Part shown: piece by piece, positions 52,448 to 60,010 of the stretch | Layout of the letters: each line of letters starts with the position of its first letter | How positions within the stretch are numbered: position 1 is the first letter of the stretch | Assembly: GCA_002082305.1 (NCBI GenBank) | Contig: LSNO01000116.1 | Coordinates: forward strand, 1 to 64,000 | Length of the DNA: 64,000 nt | Origin: SAR324 cluster bacterium SAR324-CTD7B | GTDB taxonomy: Bacteria; SAR324; NAC60-12 | Direction of reading: 5' to 3' | Program-made: the position numbers and the translations under genes | The notes under the pieces: model-generated | The model's database searches: none | What the model saw: the letters and a program-made list of their open reading frames with translations, nothing else | Told to the model about the DNA's origin: nothing

Positions 52448-54355
52448 GTGAAACTGATTAATCTCTTACTATTTTTTCTGCTGAGTATCCTCCTTTTATC
52501 CGGATGTTCAGAAAACGCAAAGAATATTCAGAAATTTCTGTTAACCAAAGAAAATGTACATGTTTACATTGAGAAGCAGAAGCTAATCGTTGGTAATGAT
52601 GAAGAAAATGCAGCTGCACATTTCAATTTAGCCAGATCCTATTTCTTTATAAAAGAATACGATTCTGCAGAAAACCATGCACGTCGAGCCACACGTTTTG
52701 ATCCGTTAAATGCGGCCTACTATGAATTGCTTGGAAGTTTAGCTTTTGTACTTGAACGTTATGGTGATGCAGTCACAGAGTTTGCGACTGCAGTCCGGAT
52801 TTCTCCGGAACGAGTTTCGTCTTATCTTAAATTAGCAGCAACGTATGAGAAAATTGACGATGACGGGCGGGCGATTTCGTCCTTGGAGCAAGCACTGCAG
52901 GTAGATCGATATTATGTAGAAGCACTTTACCATTTGTCCCGGATTTATTTGCGCCAACGGGAATTTGAAGGTTCATTGCGGACAATTGAAACTTTGCTGA
53001 AACTGGAACCGCAAAATAAAGAAGCGCTGTTAATGAGGGTTCAGACATACTCACTTCAGGGCAGTTATTATTATGCTCAAACACTGGCAGATGAAATGCT
53101 AGTTCGGTTTCCGGATTATTTACCTGTCAGACGCGAGTTACTTCGGATTCAATTTGCTCAACAGCAGTGGCCAGAAGCACAAGCATTGCTGATTCAACTA
53201 AGAACTAAAAACTCACTTTCACCAGAAGATCAACTGATAGAAGCATATTTGCTTTTACATCAGGAACAGGGAAAAGAAGCCCGTAAGCGTTTTAAAGCTA
53301 TTCTTGAAAAGCAGCCAAAAAACGTGGATGCAATTATGGGCCTGGCTGTACAGTTGTTACGCAGGGGATTTCTGGATGATTCTCTTACCTGGTTAACACG
53401 CGGTCTGGAGATCAATCCAAGTCTGGCAAGAGCACATTATCTGCGCTCCTCCATTCTATTTCGGCAAGGTGATTATCTGCAGGGAGATCTGGCCATCGGT
53501 CGAGCATTGGAAATAGATTCGGCAAATCCGTCATATCAACTTCTTTTTTTACGAAGACAATTGATGAAAGGAAAATTGGCAGTTGTTGAAAAGCAGTTAA
53601 GGCGTATACAGGAAAAACATCCACTGAATCCGGAAGCTCTGCAACTACAGGCAGATTTGTACAAAAGTCGCGGCAATTCTGCCCAGGCAGAAAAACTGCT
53701 GCGGCAGGCAATTTTGGTGAATGATTCTCCTTCATTACATTTTTCATTGGCAAGGGTACTTTATCAGCAGAGTAAGTACCGTTCTGTTTTGGAAGTGACA
53801 ACCCCGCTTATGGAAGTACTTACAGGAAACTGGGAAGTTATTTATTTGCATGCTTTGACTTTAAGCCGTGTTGGAAATTATGAAGAAGCATTGGAAATAA
53901 GTCGGCCCTATCTGAAACGTAGGGAAAGTCAGGGCTATGCGCATCGATTGGTCGGAGATTTACTGAGGTATAAAGGGGAAGAGAAGGAAGCCCAGAAAAT
54001 ACTACGCAATGGGCTGGTACAGTTTCCCGGTCATCTGTATTTGGTAGATGGATTGAGCTCATCATTAGTAATGACTGAAGACTGGGCAGAAGTTCAGGAG
54101 TTGCTGGAAACAACTTTAGAGCAAAGTCAGCGGCTGGAAGGAAATCCGCCAATGCAACTTTTGTTTCTGGACAGGTTGGCAGTAGCCTATCAGCGTCTGA
54201 AAAATACTGTAAAAAAACTACAGATTTTGAGAAAATTTCATCAGAAAAACGATCCACTGACAGCCGCACAACTGCACTCGCTGGAAGAGCAGCTCTTATT
54301 CCCAATTTCGTTACCATCTCTTGATAAGGCACTGTCACCTTTATTACTTCCGTAA
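52448..54355 (+). CDS. TPR-repeat lipoprotein, 635 aa
   Basis: A signal peptide with lipobox LLSGC (Cys about residue 20) is followed by about 15 TPR units, such as AHFNLARSYFFIKEYDSAEN and YLKLAATYEKIDDDGRAISS. This layout resembles PEP-CTERM/EPS TPR lipoproteins and outer-membrane assembly scaffolds. The start is GTG 52448, 3 bases after the previous stop. Paired with the preceding lipoprotein, it probably acts in an envelope complex of unknown purpose. Confidence 0.85.
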   Translation: MKLINLLLFFLLSILLLSGCSENAKNIQKFLLTKENVHVYIEKQKLIVGNDEENAAAHFNLARSYFFIKEYDSAENHARRATRFDPLNAAYYELLGSLAFVLERYGDAVTEFATAVRISPERVSSYLKLAATYEKIDDDGRAISSLEQALQVDRYYVEALYHLSRIYLRQREFEGSLRTIETLLKLEPQNKEALLMRVQTYSLQGSYYYAQTLADEMLVRFPDYLPVRRELLRIQFAQQQWPEAQALLIQLRTKNSLSPEDQLIEAYLLLHQEQGKEARKRFKAILEKQPKNVDAIMGLAVQLLRRGFLDDSLTWLTRGLEINPSLARAHYLRSSILFRQGDYLQGDLAIGRALEIDSANPSYQLLFLRRQLMKGKLAVVEKQLRRIQEKHPLNPEALQLQADLYKSRGNSAQAEKLLRQAILVNDSPSLHFSLARVLYQQSKYRSVLEVTTPLMEVLTGNWEVIYLHALTLSRVGNYEEALEISRPYLKRRESQGYAHRLVGDLLRYKGEEKEAQKILRNGLVQFPGHLYLVDGLSSSLVMTEDWAEVQELLETTLEQSQRLEGNPPMQLLFLDRLAVAYQRLKNTVKKLQILRKFHQKNDPLTAAQLHSLEEQLLFPISLPSLDKALSPLLLP

Positions 54356-54393: not shown

Positions 54394-57300
54394 ATGGGAT
54401 CAAACAAGAAAAAAACATACAAACACCATTCAGCGTTTCATGCCGCTGAAGTGATGTCACACGATCTTTCTCTTCTGCGGGGTAAGAAGAATTCTGTGTA
54501 TTTTGATGACTCAGAATTGCTGGGGTTGCTCTCTGCGGAGGAAGTTGAGAAAGAAGTACAACAACTAAAGAAAGTTGATGTTGATTCCTATATTCAACGG
54601 GTGGTAAGTCCATCTGAATCCAAAAATCGTCAGAGTGCTCCGGAAGTAATCCAGCAATTAGGTGGAAAAATGATTGCGGAAGAAACGGAGGGGCCACTAT
54701 ATTCTGCAGAAATTGAGATATCTATTTCAGGGCATATTCGCAGACTTGGTTTTATTGCTCAAAATCACAAAATACAAAATGGCGCCTGGTCTCCAAATCA
54801 CCACCGCAAAGCAGCAGAAAAGGTGCGGTTTTTTGCATCACACAGTATCCCCCTGGTGACATTTATTGATACTCCAGGTGCTGTTGCAGATGCTGAAGCA
54901 AATTTGGACAATCAGTCGCACAGCATTTCTTTTTTGATAAGCGAAATGGCCAATTTGCAATTGCCGGTAATCGGGATCGTTTTTGGCGGTGGTTACAGTG
55001 GCGGGGCTATTCCCCTGGCTACTGCCAATATACTGCTTTCGGTTCGAGAAGGTGTCTTTAATACTATCCACCCTAAAGGCTTAAGCAACATTGCTCGCAA
55101 GTATAATCTTTCATGGCAGGAGTCGGCCAAACACATTGGTGTTTCTGCATATGAATTACAGTCTCAGGGATATTTTGACGGCATCATCGATTATACTTAC
55201 GATCAGCAACATAAAGTGAAAAATATAAAAGATGCAATTATAAGTGCAGTTGAAGTTACTGAGAAAAATTCATGTAATTTTTTAACTGAAAATGAATTTT
55301 TCTTCGACCACTACCGTGACAGCATCAACCACTATCTCAACCCCTCAAAGCTTTTGATTGAAAGCAACAGGATAACAGATCGTTCTACCACAGGAACACT
55401 GAACATTTTTGGTGATGTTTTCCGTTTTATGCGTTACCTGAAAATACGCCAGCGCATAGTCAGTCGCTCTATTGACAGTTATGCCAGATTGAGTTCCCGT
55501 TTCACTCCAGTTGGCAAATTGCAGGAACGGTTGAAAAATGAACGACAGGAAAAATTTAAGAATTGGTATAAAACACCACTGGAAATTCGCTTTCACGAAA
55601 AGCTTAACAAACGTTTTGAACAGTTTGTCAGTGCCCGGGAAGACCGTGAGAAACAACGAGGCAAATTTGTAGCCTTTTTCATCGGCGATCCCCAGGAAAA
55701 TTATAAAAAAACGACAGATGACTTAACTTTGGAAATATTACTTTTTCTGTACAATTACTGGAAGGACAGTTCAGCAGAAAACCTGATAGAACTCTACGAA
55801 CAACTTGACAAATCCACACTGCATGACCTTCCTCCGGGCAATCCAAATTTACTCGATCTACTTAGAACTATTGATATAAATCAGAGTTTTAAGGAAAATT
55901 TTCAGAACATTCTTCTTTTTGACTTGCTCTACGATCAGGTAATTGAAGCACTACCAACGATTGCCGACGAACTGAAAGGCTCAAATCAAATTTCTCAAAA
56001 ATCTGTAGAACAGCTTTTCGAGCAAACTGTGGAAGGAGCAATGAAGGAATTTGAGAAAAACTCTTTGCAACTGAAAAGCAAATCAGTAAGAACCCAATTT
56101 TTTAAGTGGCTTGCCAGTTTTATAGACCGCAAAGATTGTGACGATGTATTGGGAACCATCAGTGAATGGAAAAGGGTCGTTTTTCCCCGAATGAGTCCTC
56201 CGCTGTTTGGAGTAGTACGCTACTATTTTTCCGGATTGCTGCCTTCACTTTATGCATCTCAGCAAGGCAAAGGTAAATTCCAGGGGAAAATCACTCCACG
56301 TAATATTGGCATAAAAGACTTTTGGAATCGTCTCGATCAATCATACAAGGATTTGTTGATCAAAAACTTGTTGCGGGAATACAAAAGTACAGTCATCACC
56401 TCCAATAAAGTTATTGAAAATTATTTCAAAGACTTTAAGGAACTTTATGCTGATAGAATAACTTCGAATCCAGTTAAATTCCCAGGTTTTAGAGATGCTA
56501 TTGAACAGGCACTTGAAAATGGTGTTACTCCATGCGGTGTTGTGACTGGACTTGCAACATTCACAGGTGAAGAAAATTCTGAAAATGGTAGTGCTAAGAA
56601 ACAGAAAACTAAAAAACAGAAAGCGACTTACCGTGTTGGATTGGTGGTCAGTAATGTAGAGTTTCAAGCTGGTGCTTTTGATATGGCAAGCTGTGAAAAA
56701 GTTTGCCGCCTGCTTGATGATTGTGCTCGTCTGAAATTGCCGGTGATCTTTTTTATTTCTTCTGCAGGAATGCAGACCAAAGAAGGTGTGGGTTCGTTAT
56801 TCTCAATGTCCATTATTAATGAACGTATTACCCGTTTTGTAAAAGATTTGGATCTTCCGGTCTTGTGCTTTGGTTTCCGAGATTGTACTGGCGGTGCACA
56901 AGCGAGTTTTGTGACTCATTTGCTTGCTCGTACTTATTATTTATCTGGATCACAAATTCCATTTGCAGGACAACTGGTTGTTGAAAGCCACTTGCCTGTA
57001 CACTCCACTTTATCCAATTACCTCTCCACCAATCCTGGAACAATGGATGGTCTTGTAAAAAATCCATTTGATACAGATATTGATGAAAAATTACTGGAGA
57101 TCGATCCACAAATTCCTGTTGCAAAATTTTCAGTAGAGGAGATCATTTCACGTGTATTATCAGGGGAATATCAGCTGTCAATAGAAGATGAAGTACAGGC
57201 CTATTCCACTCAGGAAAATCTGCATGTTGGTGAAATTCAACGTGTGCTGATTCATGCACGAGGTTGCACGGCTGCGCGACTGATACTTGGTGCACAGGAT

Positions 57301-58977
57301 GCTGGAATGGAGGTGGTTCTGGTGGCTTCAGATCCGGACATGGAAAGCTATCCGGCTACACTGCTTAAGAAAGAAGACCGTTTGGTCTGTATTGGAGGGA
57401 ACACTCCGCAGGAGAGTTATTTAAATGGAATGAGTGTGATCAGGATTGCTGAGCAGGAGGAAGTGGATGCAATCCATCCAGGGATTGGATTTTTGTCAGA
57501 ATCTCCTCATTATGCCCGAATTTGCCGGGAACATGGTTTCAATTTTATTGGTCCTCGTGTGGCTAATATGGATAGAATGGGCAACAAATCAAATGCTATT
57601 ACGACCGCAAAGAATCTAAAAATCCCGGTTGTTCCAGGTAGTGACGGTGCTTTAATGGACCCAGCACAAGCCGTGGTAGTTGCATCAGAAATTGGCTTTC
57701 CAGTACTGATTAAAGCAGCACATGGTGGTGGAGGAAAAGGGATTGAGGTAGTCCATGAAGTGACGAAGTTCCAGTCCATTTTCTCCCGTATGTTTCAAGA
57801 AGCTCTAAGTGCATTTGGTAATGGAGATTTGTATTTGGAAAAATATATCGGCTCAATGCGTCATCTTGAAGTTCAAATCATCCGTGACATGCATGGAAAT
57901 TCAAAATTGCTGGGAATTCGTGATTGCTCGGTTCAGCGTAACTACCAAAAACTGATTGAAGAAACTGCTTCTGGAATTCCGAAAAAAATCAGAGAACAGG
58001 TTTATAACTATGCAGAAAAATTGATTGAGGAAATTGATTACATAGGCGCCGGAACTGTTGAATTTATTTACGATCTTACAGAAAAGAAGATCTATTTTAT
58101 GGAAATGAATACACGGCTTCAAGTTGAACATCCGGTATCTGAAATGGTTTACGGGGTTGATTTGGTTCGCTTACAGTTTGAAGTGACACAAGGTTACAAC
58201 ATTGGAGAGTTGGATTATAAGCTGAAGGGCCATGCCATTGAATTACGTGTGATTGCAGAAAAAATTGAATTGGATGATGAAAATGAGCTGCGATTTGTTC
58301 CTGATCCGGGACATGTTTCTGAAGTCTTTTTTCCTAAAAAAGCCAATGTGCGTGTTATTCAATCCGTTGATTCAGGTTCTGTTGTCTCACCTTATTATGA
58401 CAGCCTGATCGCACAGATTATCTGCTGGGGAAAATCACGCAGGGAAGCAATTAACGGTTTACTTAAATATTTAAAAGGAGTGAAAATTCACGGTGTTTCA
58501 ACTAACCTGGCCTTGAATCGTGCTATTTTACAAGATGCATCTTTCCAAAAGGGAGGTTTCAGTACCAAATATCTTGTAGATTTTTTTGAGGAGGTTGATT
58601 CGAAGACTCTATTGAAAGAAGCCCAGAGAGACTCCGGCAGTACAAAAAGTTCTGTGGACCAGAAAGCTATTATGCTGGAAGATTCTGATGAGTTGAAGGT
58701 CCTTTCTCCACAGATGGGAGGTTTCTATCGTGCAACATCTCCAGATGATGAACCATTTGTCAGTGAAGAACAAATCATTGACGTCAATCATACCCTTTGT
58801 TTACTTGAATCGATGAAGGTTTTCAATAGTTTGACTTTGGCTGATTATAAAAGCCCGGATGGAGAAGTATTATACCCGGAGGGGTCAAAATACAAAGTTA
58901 TACGAGTAATTGCAGAGGACCAAAACACTGTCAACAAAGGTGATTTACTGTTTGTGATACAGCCTGTGGATGCCTGA
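54394..58977 (+). CDS. Single-chain acyl-CoA carboxylase: CT-alpha, CT-beta, biotin carboxylase, BCCP
   Basis: A biotin-dependent carboxylase with all functions on 1527 residues. Residues ~105-285 are AccA-like (PLVTFIDTPGAVADAE, IGIVFGGGYSGGAIPLAT, FNTIHPKGLSNIA). Residues ~300-690 are a helical linker with no family match. Residues ~700-930 are AccD-like (FISSAGMQTKEGVGS, FRDCTGGAQASFVTH), lack the AccD zinc finger and contain a KKQKTKKQK insert. Residues ~945-1390 are biotin carboxylase (KAAHGGGGKGIEVV, IRDCSVQRNYQKLIEE, MEMNTRLQVEHPVSE). Residues ~1430-1527 are a BCCP domain with biotinyl Lys1475 in LLESMKVFN. The acceptor could be acetyl-CoA or a longer acyl-CoA. It overlaps the polyprenyl synthase gene by 8 bases. 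Confidence 0.92.
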   Translation: MGSNKKKTYKHHSAFHAAEVMSHDLSLLRGKKNSVYFDDSELLGLLSAEEVEKEVQQLKKVDVDSYIQRVVSPSESKNRQSAPEVIQQLGGKMIAEETEGPLYSAEIEISISGHIRRLGFIAQNHKIQNGAWSPNHHRKAAEKVRFFASHSIPLVTFIDTPGAVADAEANLDNQSHSISFLISEMANLQLPVIGIVFGGGYSGGAIPLATANILLSVREGVFNTIHPKGLSNIARKYNLSWQESAKHIGVSAYELQSQGYFDGIIDYTYDQQHKVKNIKDAIISAVEVTEKNSCNFLTENEFFFDHYRDSINHYLNPSKLLIESNRITDRSTTGTLNIFGDVFRFMRYLKIRQRIVSRSIDSYARLSSRFTPVGKLQERLKNERQEKFKNWYKTPLEIRFHEKLNKRFEQFVSAREDREKQRGKFVAFFIGDPQENYKKTTDDLTLEILLFLYNYWKDSSAENLIELYEQLDKSTLHDLPPGNPNLLDLLRTIDINQSFKENFQNILLFDLLYDQVIEALPTIADELKGSNQISQKSVEQLFEQTVEGAMKEFEKNSLQLKSKSVRTQFFKWLASFIDRKDCDDVLGTISEWKRVVFPRMSPPLFGVVRYYFSGLLPSLYASQQGKGKFQGKITPRNIGIKDFWNRLDQSYKDLLIKNLLREYKSTVITSNKVIENYFKDFKELYADRITSNPVKFPGFRDAIEQALENGVTPCGVVTGLATFTGEENSENGSAKKQKTKKQKATYRVGLVVSNVEFQAGAFDMASCEKVCRLLDDCARLKLPVIFFISSAGMQTKEGVGSLFSMSIINERITRFVKDLDLPVLCFGFRDCTGGAQASFVTHLLARTYYLSGSQIPFAGQLVVESHLPVHSTLSNYLSTNPGTMDGLVKNPFDTDIDEKLLEIDPQIPVAKFSVEEIISRVLSGEYQLSIEDEVQAYSTQENLHVGEIQRVLIHARGCTAARLILGAQDAGMEVVLVASDPDMESYPATLLKKEDRLVCIGGNTPQESYLNGMSVIRIAEQEEVDAIHPGIGFLSESPHYARICREHGFNFIGPRVANMDRMGNKSNAITTAKNLKIPVVPGSDGALMDPAQAVVVASEIGFPVLIKAAHGGGGKGIEVVHEVTKFQSIFSRMFQEALSAFGNGDLYLEKYIGSMRHLEVQIIRDMHGNSKLLGIRDCSVQRNYQKLIEETASGIPKKIREQVYNYAEKLIEEIDYIGAGTVEFIYDLTEKKIYFMEMNTRLQVEHPVSEMVYGVDLVRLQFEVTQGYNIGELDYKLKGHAIELRVIAEKIELDDENELRFVPDPGHVSEVFFPKKANVRVIQSVDSGSVVSPYYDSLIAQIICWGKSRREAINGLLKYLKGVKIHGVSTNLALNRAILQDASFQKGGFSTKYLVDFFEEVDSKTLLKEAQRDSGSTKSSVDQKAIMLEDSDELKVLSPQMGGFYRATSPDDEPFVSEEQIIDVNHTLCLLESMKVFNSLTLADYKSPDGEVLYPEGSKYKVIRVIAEDQNTVNKGDLLFVIQPVDA

Positions 58978-60010
58978 TCACAAATCACTTGTCATGAAAC
59001 AACAAAATAAAGCAGGAATTGTCCAAAAAACCTCCCCTCCGCAAAGTTTAACGCAAATTCTCAAAGTAGTCTCTTCTAAAATCGAACTGCTGGAATCACA
59101 AATTTTACGTGATGTACGGACCGATATTCCGTTACTTAACAATGTTGCTGAGCATATTCTAAGTTCAGGAGGAAAACGTTTGCGCCCCGCACTTGTACTT
59201 TTAGGTGCGGAGATGTTTGGAGGCATTGATGAACGAGTTATGCAGGCAGCTCAAGTTATTGAATATTTACACACCGCAACATTGTTGCACGATGACGTTG
59301 TTGATGGGGCGGAAACTAGAAGGGCCAGGCAGGCGGCTTGCAGAGTATGGGGAAATGAAGTGAGTGTCCTTTCCGGAGATTATCTGTTGGCCATGGCATT
59401 TCACCGCCTTACAAAATTGCGTTATCCGGAAGTTCTGGAACTGATGTCTGAAACTACAACAAGGATGGCACGGGGTGAATTATTGCAGTTGACACGTTCA
59501 TACAAGACGGCCAACGAAGATGATTATTTTGAAATCATTATCAACAAAACAGCCTGTCTTTTTGCAACAGCAATCAAAACGGGGGCTTTACTGGCTGGAG
59601 CTTCAGGAAAATCTGCTGATCTGATGTACGATTACGGAATGGCAATTGGAATCTCTTTTCAAATTGTGGATGATGCTCTTGATTATTCGGATGAGAAAAA
59701 AACGGGAAAGCCGGTGGGTGGAGATTTACAGGAACGAAAAATAACCCTTCCTTTGAGTCATTTGCTGGAACAGGCAAATGTTAGGGACAGAAAGCGTCTG
59801 GATTTGATTCTTGCTCAAGCGATTATCGAAAAACCGCAGATAGAGGAGGTAACATGTTTGATGAAACGCTACGGTTCCATCGACTATACATTGGCACACT
59901 CCAGGGAATATGCAGCAAAGGCTATGCAGTACATAGAAAATTTTCCTGATACAGAGCTTAGACAATCACTTGCAGGCATTGCTGATTATATCGTTTCTCG
60001 TCAAGATTGA
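58970..60010 (+). CDS. ispB: Polyprenyl (octaprenyl-type) diphosphate synthase
   Basis: A trans-isoprenyl chain elongase that makes the quinone side chain. Both Asp-rich motifs are intact: LLHDDVVDGAETRR (FARM) and QIVDDALDYSDEKKTGKPVG (SARM). SGGKRLRPALVLLGAE is also typical. At 346 aa it is slightly long at the N-terminus; a second ATG at codon 9 (MKQQNKAG) is possible and would avoid the 8-base overlap with the carboxylase gene. It is the last gene of the plus-strand run and is convergent with the response regulator. Confidence 0.93.
   Translation: MPDHKSLVMKQQNKAGIVQKTSPPQSLTQILKVVSSKIELLESQILRDVRTDIPLLNNVAEHILSSGGKRLRPALVLLGAEMFGGIDERVMQAAQVIEYLHTATLLHDDVVDGAETRRARQAACRVWGNEVSVLSGDYLLAMAFHRLTKLRYPEVLELMSETTTRMARGELLQLTRSYKTANEDDYFEIIINKTACLFATAIKTGALLAGASGKSADLMYDYGMAIGISFQIVDDALDYSDEKKTGKPVGGDLQERKITLPLSHLLEQANVRDRKRLDLILAQAIIEKPQIEEVTCLMKRYGSIDYTLAHSREYAAKAMQYIENFPDTELRQSLAGIADYIVSRQD

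Follow-up and report, generated by a model that had tools for sequence, protein, structure and literature searches.

A SAR324 orthologue of the single-chain acetyl-CoA carboxylase AccS of Shewanella very probably replaces the four separate acc genes in its order

In Shewanella oneidensis, AccS (SO_0840; 1517 amino acids [aa]) (PMC4793157) is a multidomain acetyl-CoA carboxylase (ACC) whose domain order is unlike that of the eukaryotic enzymes (PMC4793157, PMC11602165). The protein is biotinylated in vivo, and low levels of AccS cause a growth defect that is rescued by E. coli accABCD (PMC11602165). The LysR regulator AccR, whose divergent gene lies beside accS in Shewanella, activates AccS, and the growth defect of an accR mutant is likewise rescued by E. 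coli accA, accD and accBC together (PMC4793157, PMC11602165). The published range of AccS, from which its gamma-proteobacterial distribution is taken here, comprises Shewanella and a few gamma-proteobacterial genera (PMC11602165).

The stretch analyzed here (the window) is a 64,000-nucleotide segment of contig LSNO01000116.1 of SAR324 cluster bacterium SAR324-CTD7B. On its forward strand, positions 54394 to 58977 form a single frame of 1527 aa with an ATG start, a TGA stop and no internal stops, designated accADCB/accS. The initial annotation had read this frame as a one-polypeptide acyl-CoA carboxylase with the order CT-alpha, CT-beta, BC, BCCP, and the Pfam and NCBIfam domains agree. CT-alpha (AccA-like; approximately residues 90 to 300; 54661 to 55293) was recognized by Pfam (ACCA, 123 to 293; 5e-29), NCBIfam (accA, 130 to 302) and alignment with E. 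coli AccA; thus, the segment-wise HMM search assigned the N-terminal part to ACCA and not to another crotonase-fold family. CT-beta (AccD-like; approximately residues 691 to 935; 56464 to 57198) was delimited by TIGR00515 (accD, 745 to 889; 32 bits) and alignment with E. coli AccD, and Pfam Carboxyl_trans matched the protein in two stretches (3e-17). The biotin carboxylase (BC; approximately residues 945 to 1402; 57226 to 58599) comprises Biotin_carb_N (948 to 1059), CPSase_L_D2 (1065 to 1271) and Biotin_carb_C (1283 to 1394), matches NCBIfam accC (948 to 1396) and retains the E. coli AccC positions detailed below. The BCCP (approximately residues 1425 to 1526; 58666 to 58971) was identified by TIGR00531 (1414 to 1486), alignment with E. 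coli AccB and the lysine K1475; the Pfam Biotin_lipoyl match (1436 to 1481) is weak and under its cut-off. All four NCBIfam matches (accA, accD, accC and BCCP) fall below the equivalog cut-offs. The frame is free of stops in relatives down to ∼52% identity and is not a product of chance, because it is kept across the entire range of 52 to 93% identity.

A search of PDB sequences returned one end-to-end match, 9kkm/9w4a (1447 bits; accADCB residues 15 to 1526), a protein of 1517 aa titled "Acetyl-CoA carboxylase multifunctional enzyme AccADCB." Because its length equals that of the S. oneidensis protein and because it differs little, in the stretches compared, from a plasmid copy of Shewanella type, 9kkm is taken to be S. 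oneidensis AccS. Aligned over 1475 residues with a composite from Shewanella, whose CT half is from a Shewanella-derived plasmid copy and whose BC-BCCP half is from 9kkm, accADCB shows ∼46% identity. It is highly likely that accADCB is the SAR324 orthologue of Shewanella AccS, a single-chain acetyl-CoA carboxylase that has replaced the separate accA, accB, accC and accD in its order. The initial annotation had proposed either an alternative ACC design or a different acyl-CoA carboxylase. Of the two, the evidence clearly favors an acetyl-CoA carboxylase, but the design is not new, because Shewanella AccS/AccADCB has the same domain order; the earlier comparison was made with eukaryotic ACCs only and missed this bacterial protein (PDB 9kkm, 9w4a; PMC11602165, PMC4793157).

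The homology extends to the segment between the two CT halves. The linker of ∼390 residues noted earlier (residues 301 to 690; 55294 to 56463) does have that length and has its homologue in the equivalent segment of 9kkm. No Pfam family recognizes these residues, and when the linker alone was compared with the PDB, 9kkm was retrieved at E 5e-65 and was the only match below E 0.1, with nothing else convincing. The segment is a family-specific linker, with 34% identity to the Shewanella protein. The linker may also be helical, as first described: helices are predicted there in a low-confidence AlphaFold2 model of residues 1 to 940 built with six close sequences (mean pLDDT, 37.5). The reported loss of the AccD zinc finger was borne out as well. 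The cysteine motif of E. coli AccD is without a counterpart in accADCB, and across residues 640 to 745 only two columns (663 and 714) ever hold a Cys among 19 homologues.

Catalytic motifs are retained in all four parts. In the alignment of the BC domain with E. coli AccC, identity holds at 16 of the 17 active-site positions that were checked. In E. coli numbering these are K116, K159, E201, H209, E211, Q233, Q237 and K238 (K1065, K1107, E1149, H1157, E1159, Q1181, Q1185 and K1186 in accADCB), together with E276, E288, N290, R292, Q294, V295, E296 and R338 (E1223, E1237, N1239, R1241, Q1243, V1244, E1245 and R1285); the sole change is at AccC H236, which is Tyr in accADCB and Asn in Shewanella. 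CT-alpha carries the motif G198xGYSGGA205, whose glycines are invariant in 19 homologues, and CT-beta carries SSAGMQTKE and CTGGAQASF (around S789-K796 and C831-A835), which are conserved in the family. Within the first of these, position 791 (codon 56764 to 56766) is Ala in the genus of the window and its near relatives and Gly in Shewanella and other SAR324. The BCCP domain has a thumb-like TSPDDEPFV and a biotinyl lysine, K1475 in ESMKV, that is invariant in 19 homologues, and a BirA homologue is encoded in the SAR324-CTD7B genome. The protein is predicted to be biotinylated and catalytically active; it would carry biotin and carboxylate acetyl-CoA in place of the four-gene ACC. Acetyl-CoA as the main substrate, an assembly like that of 9kkm and an essential role would likewise be expected.

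To place the gene within the phylum, 52 SAR324 genomes were sampled. Fused accADCB is present in 39 of the 41 genomes of the window's order, which comprises two families, and in none of the 11 genomes from other SAR324 families. Conversely, canonical accA or accD reached the family cut-offs in 0 of the 41 genomes, and both are present above the cut-offs in 7 of the 11. Thus, the fused gene and canonical accA plus accD are mutually exclusive within SAR324; two genomes of the window's order (G027 and G002) have neither. The initial annotation had called for a survey of separate acc genes in the same genome. In the SAR324-CTD7B draft, neither accA nor accD turned up as a separate gene, nor did the set of separate AccA, AccB, AccC and AccD chains above family cut-offs that would mark a heteromeric ACC. 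By itself, the absence of accA and accD from SAR324-CTD7B would carry little weight because the genome is a draft (87.7% complete; 148 contigs). On these counts, the order most likely has accADCB as its only acetyl-CoA carboxylase, serving as the housekeeping ACC.

Four large genomes of another SAR324 family (G044, G045, G046 and G047; 6.7 to 7.8 Mb) contain no fused gene and no accA or accD above the cut-off; only PccB-like carboxyltransferases were found, and these bacteria may use an ACC of the acyl-CoA carboxylase type. Outside SAR324, none of 331 sampled genomes matched accADCB at E 1e-130 or better, in a sample that may hold few or no Shewanella relatives. Relatives of 80 to 93% identity belong to records that bear the titles SAR324 cluster, Deltaproteobacteria or Proteobacteria. 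Among the papers retrieved that mention both SAR324 and acetyl-CoA carboxylase, no title or opening part of an abstract was about accADCB.

Among mobile elements, the search of a phage collection gave only weak partial CT matches, all in unannotated records, and no plasmid with full-length accADCB was found in the plasmid search. The Enterobacter asburiae plasmid pOXA436 (L047:15001-17742) carries the CT part of a Shewanella-type accADCB, interrupted by in-frame stops. Upstream of this fragment are blaOXA-436 and a lysR gene, and the gene table of the plasmid gives no CDS for it. Partial matches to the fragment occur in some 680 plasmid records; in those listed, the match covers just the first 74 bases.

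A tree built from 34 BC domains was used to examine the descent of the family. The AccADCB BC domains, including that of Shewanella, all group in a single clade (100/100), set off by a long branch from the BC domains of SAR324 accC, E. coli AccC, acyl-CoA carboxylase and pyruvate carboxylase, which fits a single fusion origin with transfer between phyla. In this tree, Shewanella is placed beside the second SAR324 family, inside the SAR324 diversity (86/77), but a topology in which SAR324 is monophyletic cannot be rejected (AU p 0.133). As a tentative scenario, AccADCB may be old and fixed in one SAR324 order, and horizontal transfer may link this order to gamma-proteobacteria such as Shewanella, possibly out of SAR324.

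Other explanations of the locus were weighed against this evidence. The source is a draft assembly, and one relative (G025/L022, a 5-contig assembly) has a copy with several in-frame stops and frame changes, as might be expected if the frame were a misassembly or a non-functional relic. Yet ∼30 other SAR324 genomes carry the frame unbroken, at full or nearly full length and with the motifs kept, at 52 to 87% identity, and this recurrence in independent assemblies rules out the misassembly and pseudogene readings, to which virtually no probability attaches. In the interrupted copy itself (L022:10001-14565; G025:C1:431071-435635), the stops and frame changes occur at 79 to 93% identity and probably reflect long-read sequencing error rather than decay. 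No more credible is the reading that this ACC design arose anew and has no relation to AccS: the domain order does differ from that of eukaryotic ACC, and the protein does score below the NCBIfam equivalog cut-offs, but homology with 9kkm spans the full length, and the two BC domains share a clade apart from those of AccC, acyl-CoA carboxylase and pyruvate carboxylase. That both proteins have this linker, and that their BC domains fall in one clade, rules out an independent design.

The choice of substrate calls for a comparison with the other biotin-dependent proteins of the genome. Contig C29 (L024:1578-4355) encodes a 925-aa protein in which a divergent, insert-containing biotin carboxylase is joined to a biotinyl domain at the C terminus (EVMKMFNQI). 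Its gene is flanked by tgt-like and phosphoglycerate mutase-like genes, and frames of this BC-BCCP kind (∼820 to 990 aa) were matched in many genomes of the order. Two PccB-like carboxyltransferases are encoded on C117 and C50, and a further biotinyl domain on C35 is cut by the contig end. Because the genome encodes these proteins as well, the substrate of accADCB is assigned by homology. In related actinobacterial and archaeal acyl-CoA carboxylases, PccB-like CT subunits serve acetyl-CoA. The C29 protein and the C117 or C50 carboxyltransferase could, by the same token, handle acetyl-CoA, leaving propionyl-CoA or longer acyl-CoA to accADCB. This division of labor is improbable, given that the CT halves of accADCB match AccA and AccD, not PccB; that E. 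coli acetyl-CoA carboxylase genes functionally replace the characterized homologue AccS (PMC11602165); and that no SAR324 family combines the fused gene with canonical accA/accD. Furthermore, PccA-like proteins are present in many genomes of the order, suggesting that the PccB-like subunits have partners of their own. An orthologue of AccS acting on acetyl-CoA thus remains the preferred reading.

In the genus of the window, the gene has a conserved setting, with the order lipoprotein-like gene, TPR protein, accADCB and polyprenyl synthetase. The TPR protein gene (52448 to 54355, forward strand) ends ∼38 bases upstream and is not part of the enzyme. The first ATG of the polyprenyl synthetase (IspB-like) gene (58970 to 60010, forward strand) overlaps the end of accADCB, stop included, by 8 bases; the two genes also adjoin in L017-L022 and are probably cotranscribed. 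In the other family, the neighbors of accADCB, as read by eye in L078, are purN-, cdsA-, dxr- and rseP-like genes. A divergent accR of the LysR type was not seen among the SAR324 neighbors examined (the window and, by reading, the L078 ORF list); therefore, regulation probably differs from that in Shewanella.

The architecture of accADCB is already known; what is new is its distribution across an entire SAR324 order. The published range of AccS, Shewanella plus a few genera of gamma-proteobacteria, thereby gains an order of marine bacteria in which the fused gene seems to have taken the place of the standard four-gene ACC. SAR324 lineages with fused and with separate ACC offer a natural comparison for how and why the fusion arose, and the SAR324 sequences, at ∼52 to 93% identity, form a deep set for interpreting AccADCB structures. 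Furthermore, no NCBIfam model reaches its cut-off on accADCB, so automatic annotation may miss the ACC and call such genomes ACC-less.

Among known carboxylases, Shewanella AccS/AccADCB is the closest: the two proteins have in common their approximate length, domain order, linker, lack of a zinc finger, catalytic motifs and biotinyl lysine. The SAR324 protein differs in its host phylum, SAR324 rather than gamma-proteobacteria; in its surroundings, with a polyprenyl synthetase gene downstream and no adjoining divergent accR; in residue 791, Ala in the window and near relatives and Gly in Shewanella and the sister family; and in the BCCP motif, which in SAR324-CTD7B is ESMKV, not EAMKM. With E. 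coli AccA, AccB, AccC and AccD it shares four homologous parts, a nearly identical BC active site and an AccB-like thumb, whereas the E. coli ACC consists of four chains, has the AccD zinc finger and has no such linker. Eukaryotic ACC1/ACC2 and yeast Acc1 similarly carry BC, BCCP and CT on one polypeptide, but in the order BC, BCCP, central domain, CT, with the beta-like half first, and their large noncatalytic region is different from that of accADCB. The multidomain carboxylase of Saccharopolyspora and the mycobacterial LCC are set apart by their description, with BC first and a CT of the PccB kind rather than AccA plus AccD. Like accADCB, both are single-chain prokaryotic biotin-dependent acyl-CoA carboxylases (PMC6491548 for Saccharopolyspora).
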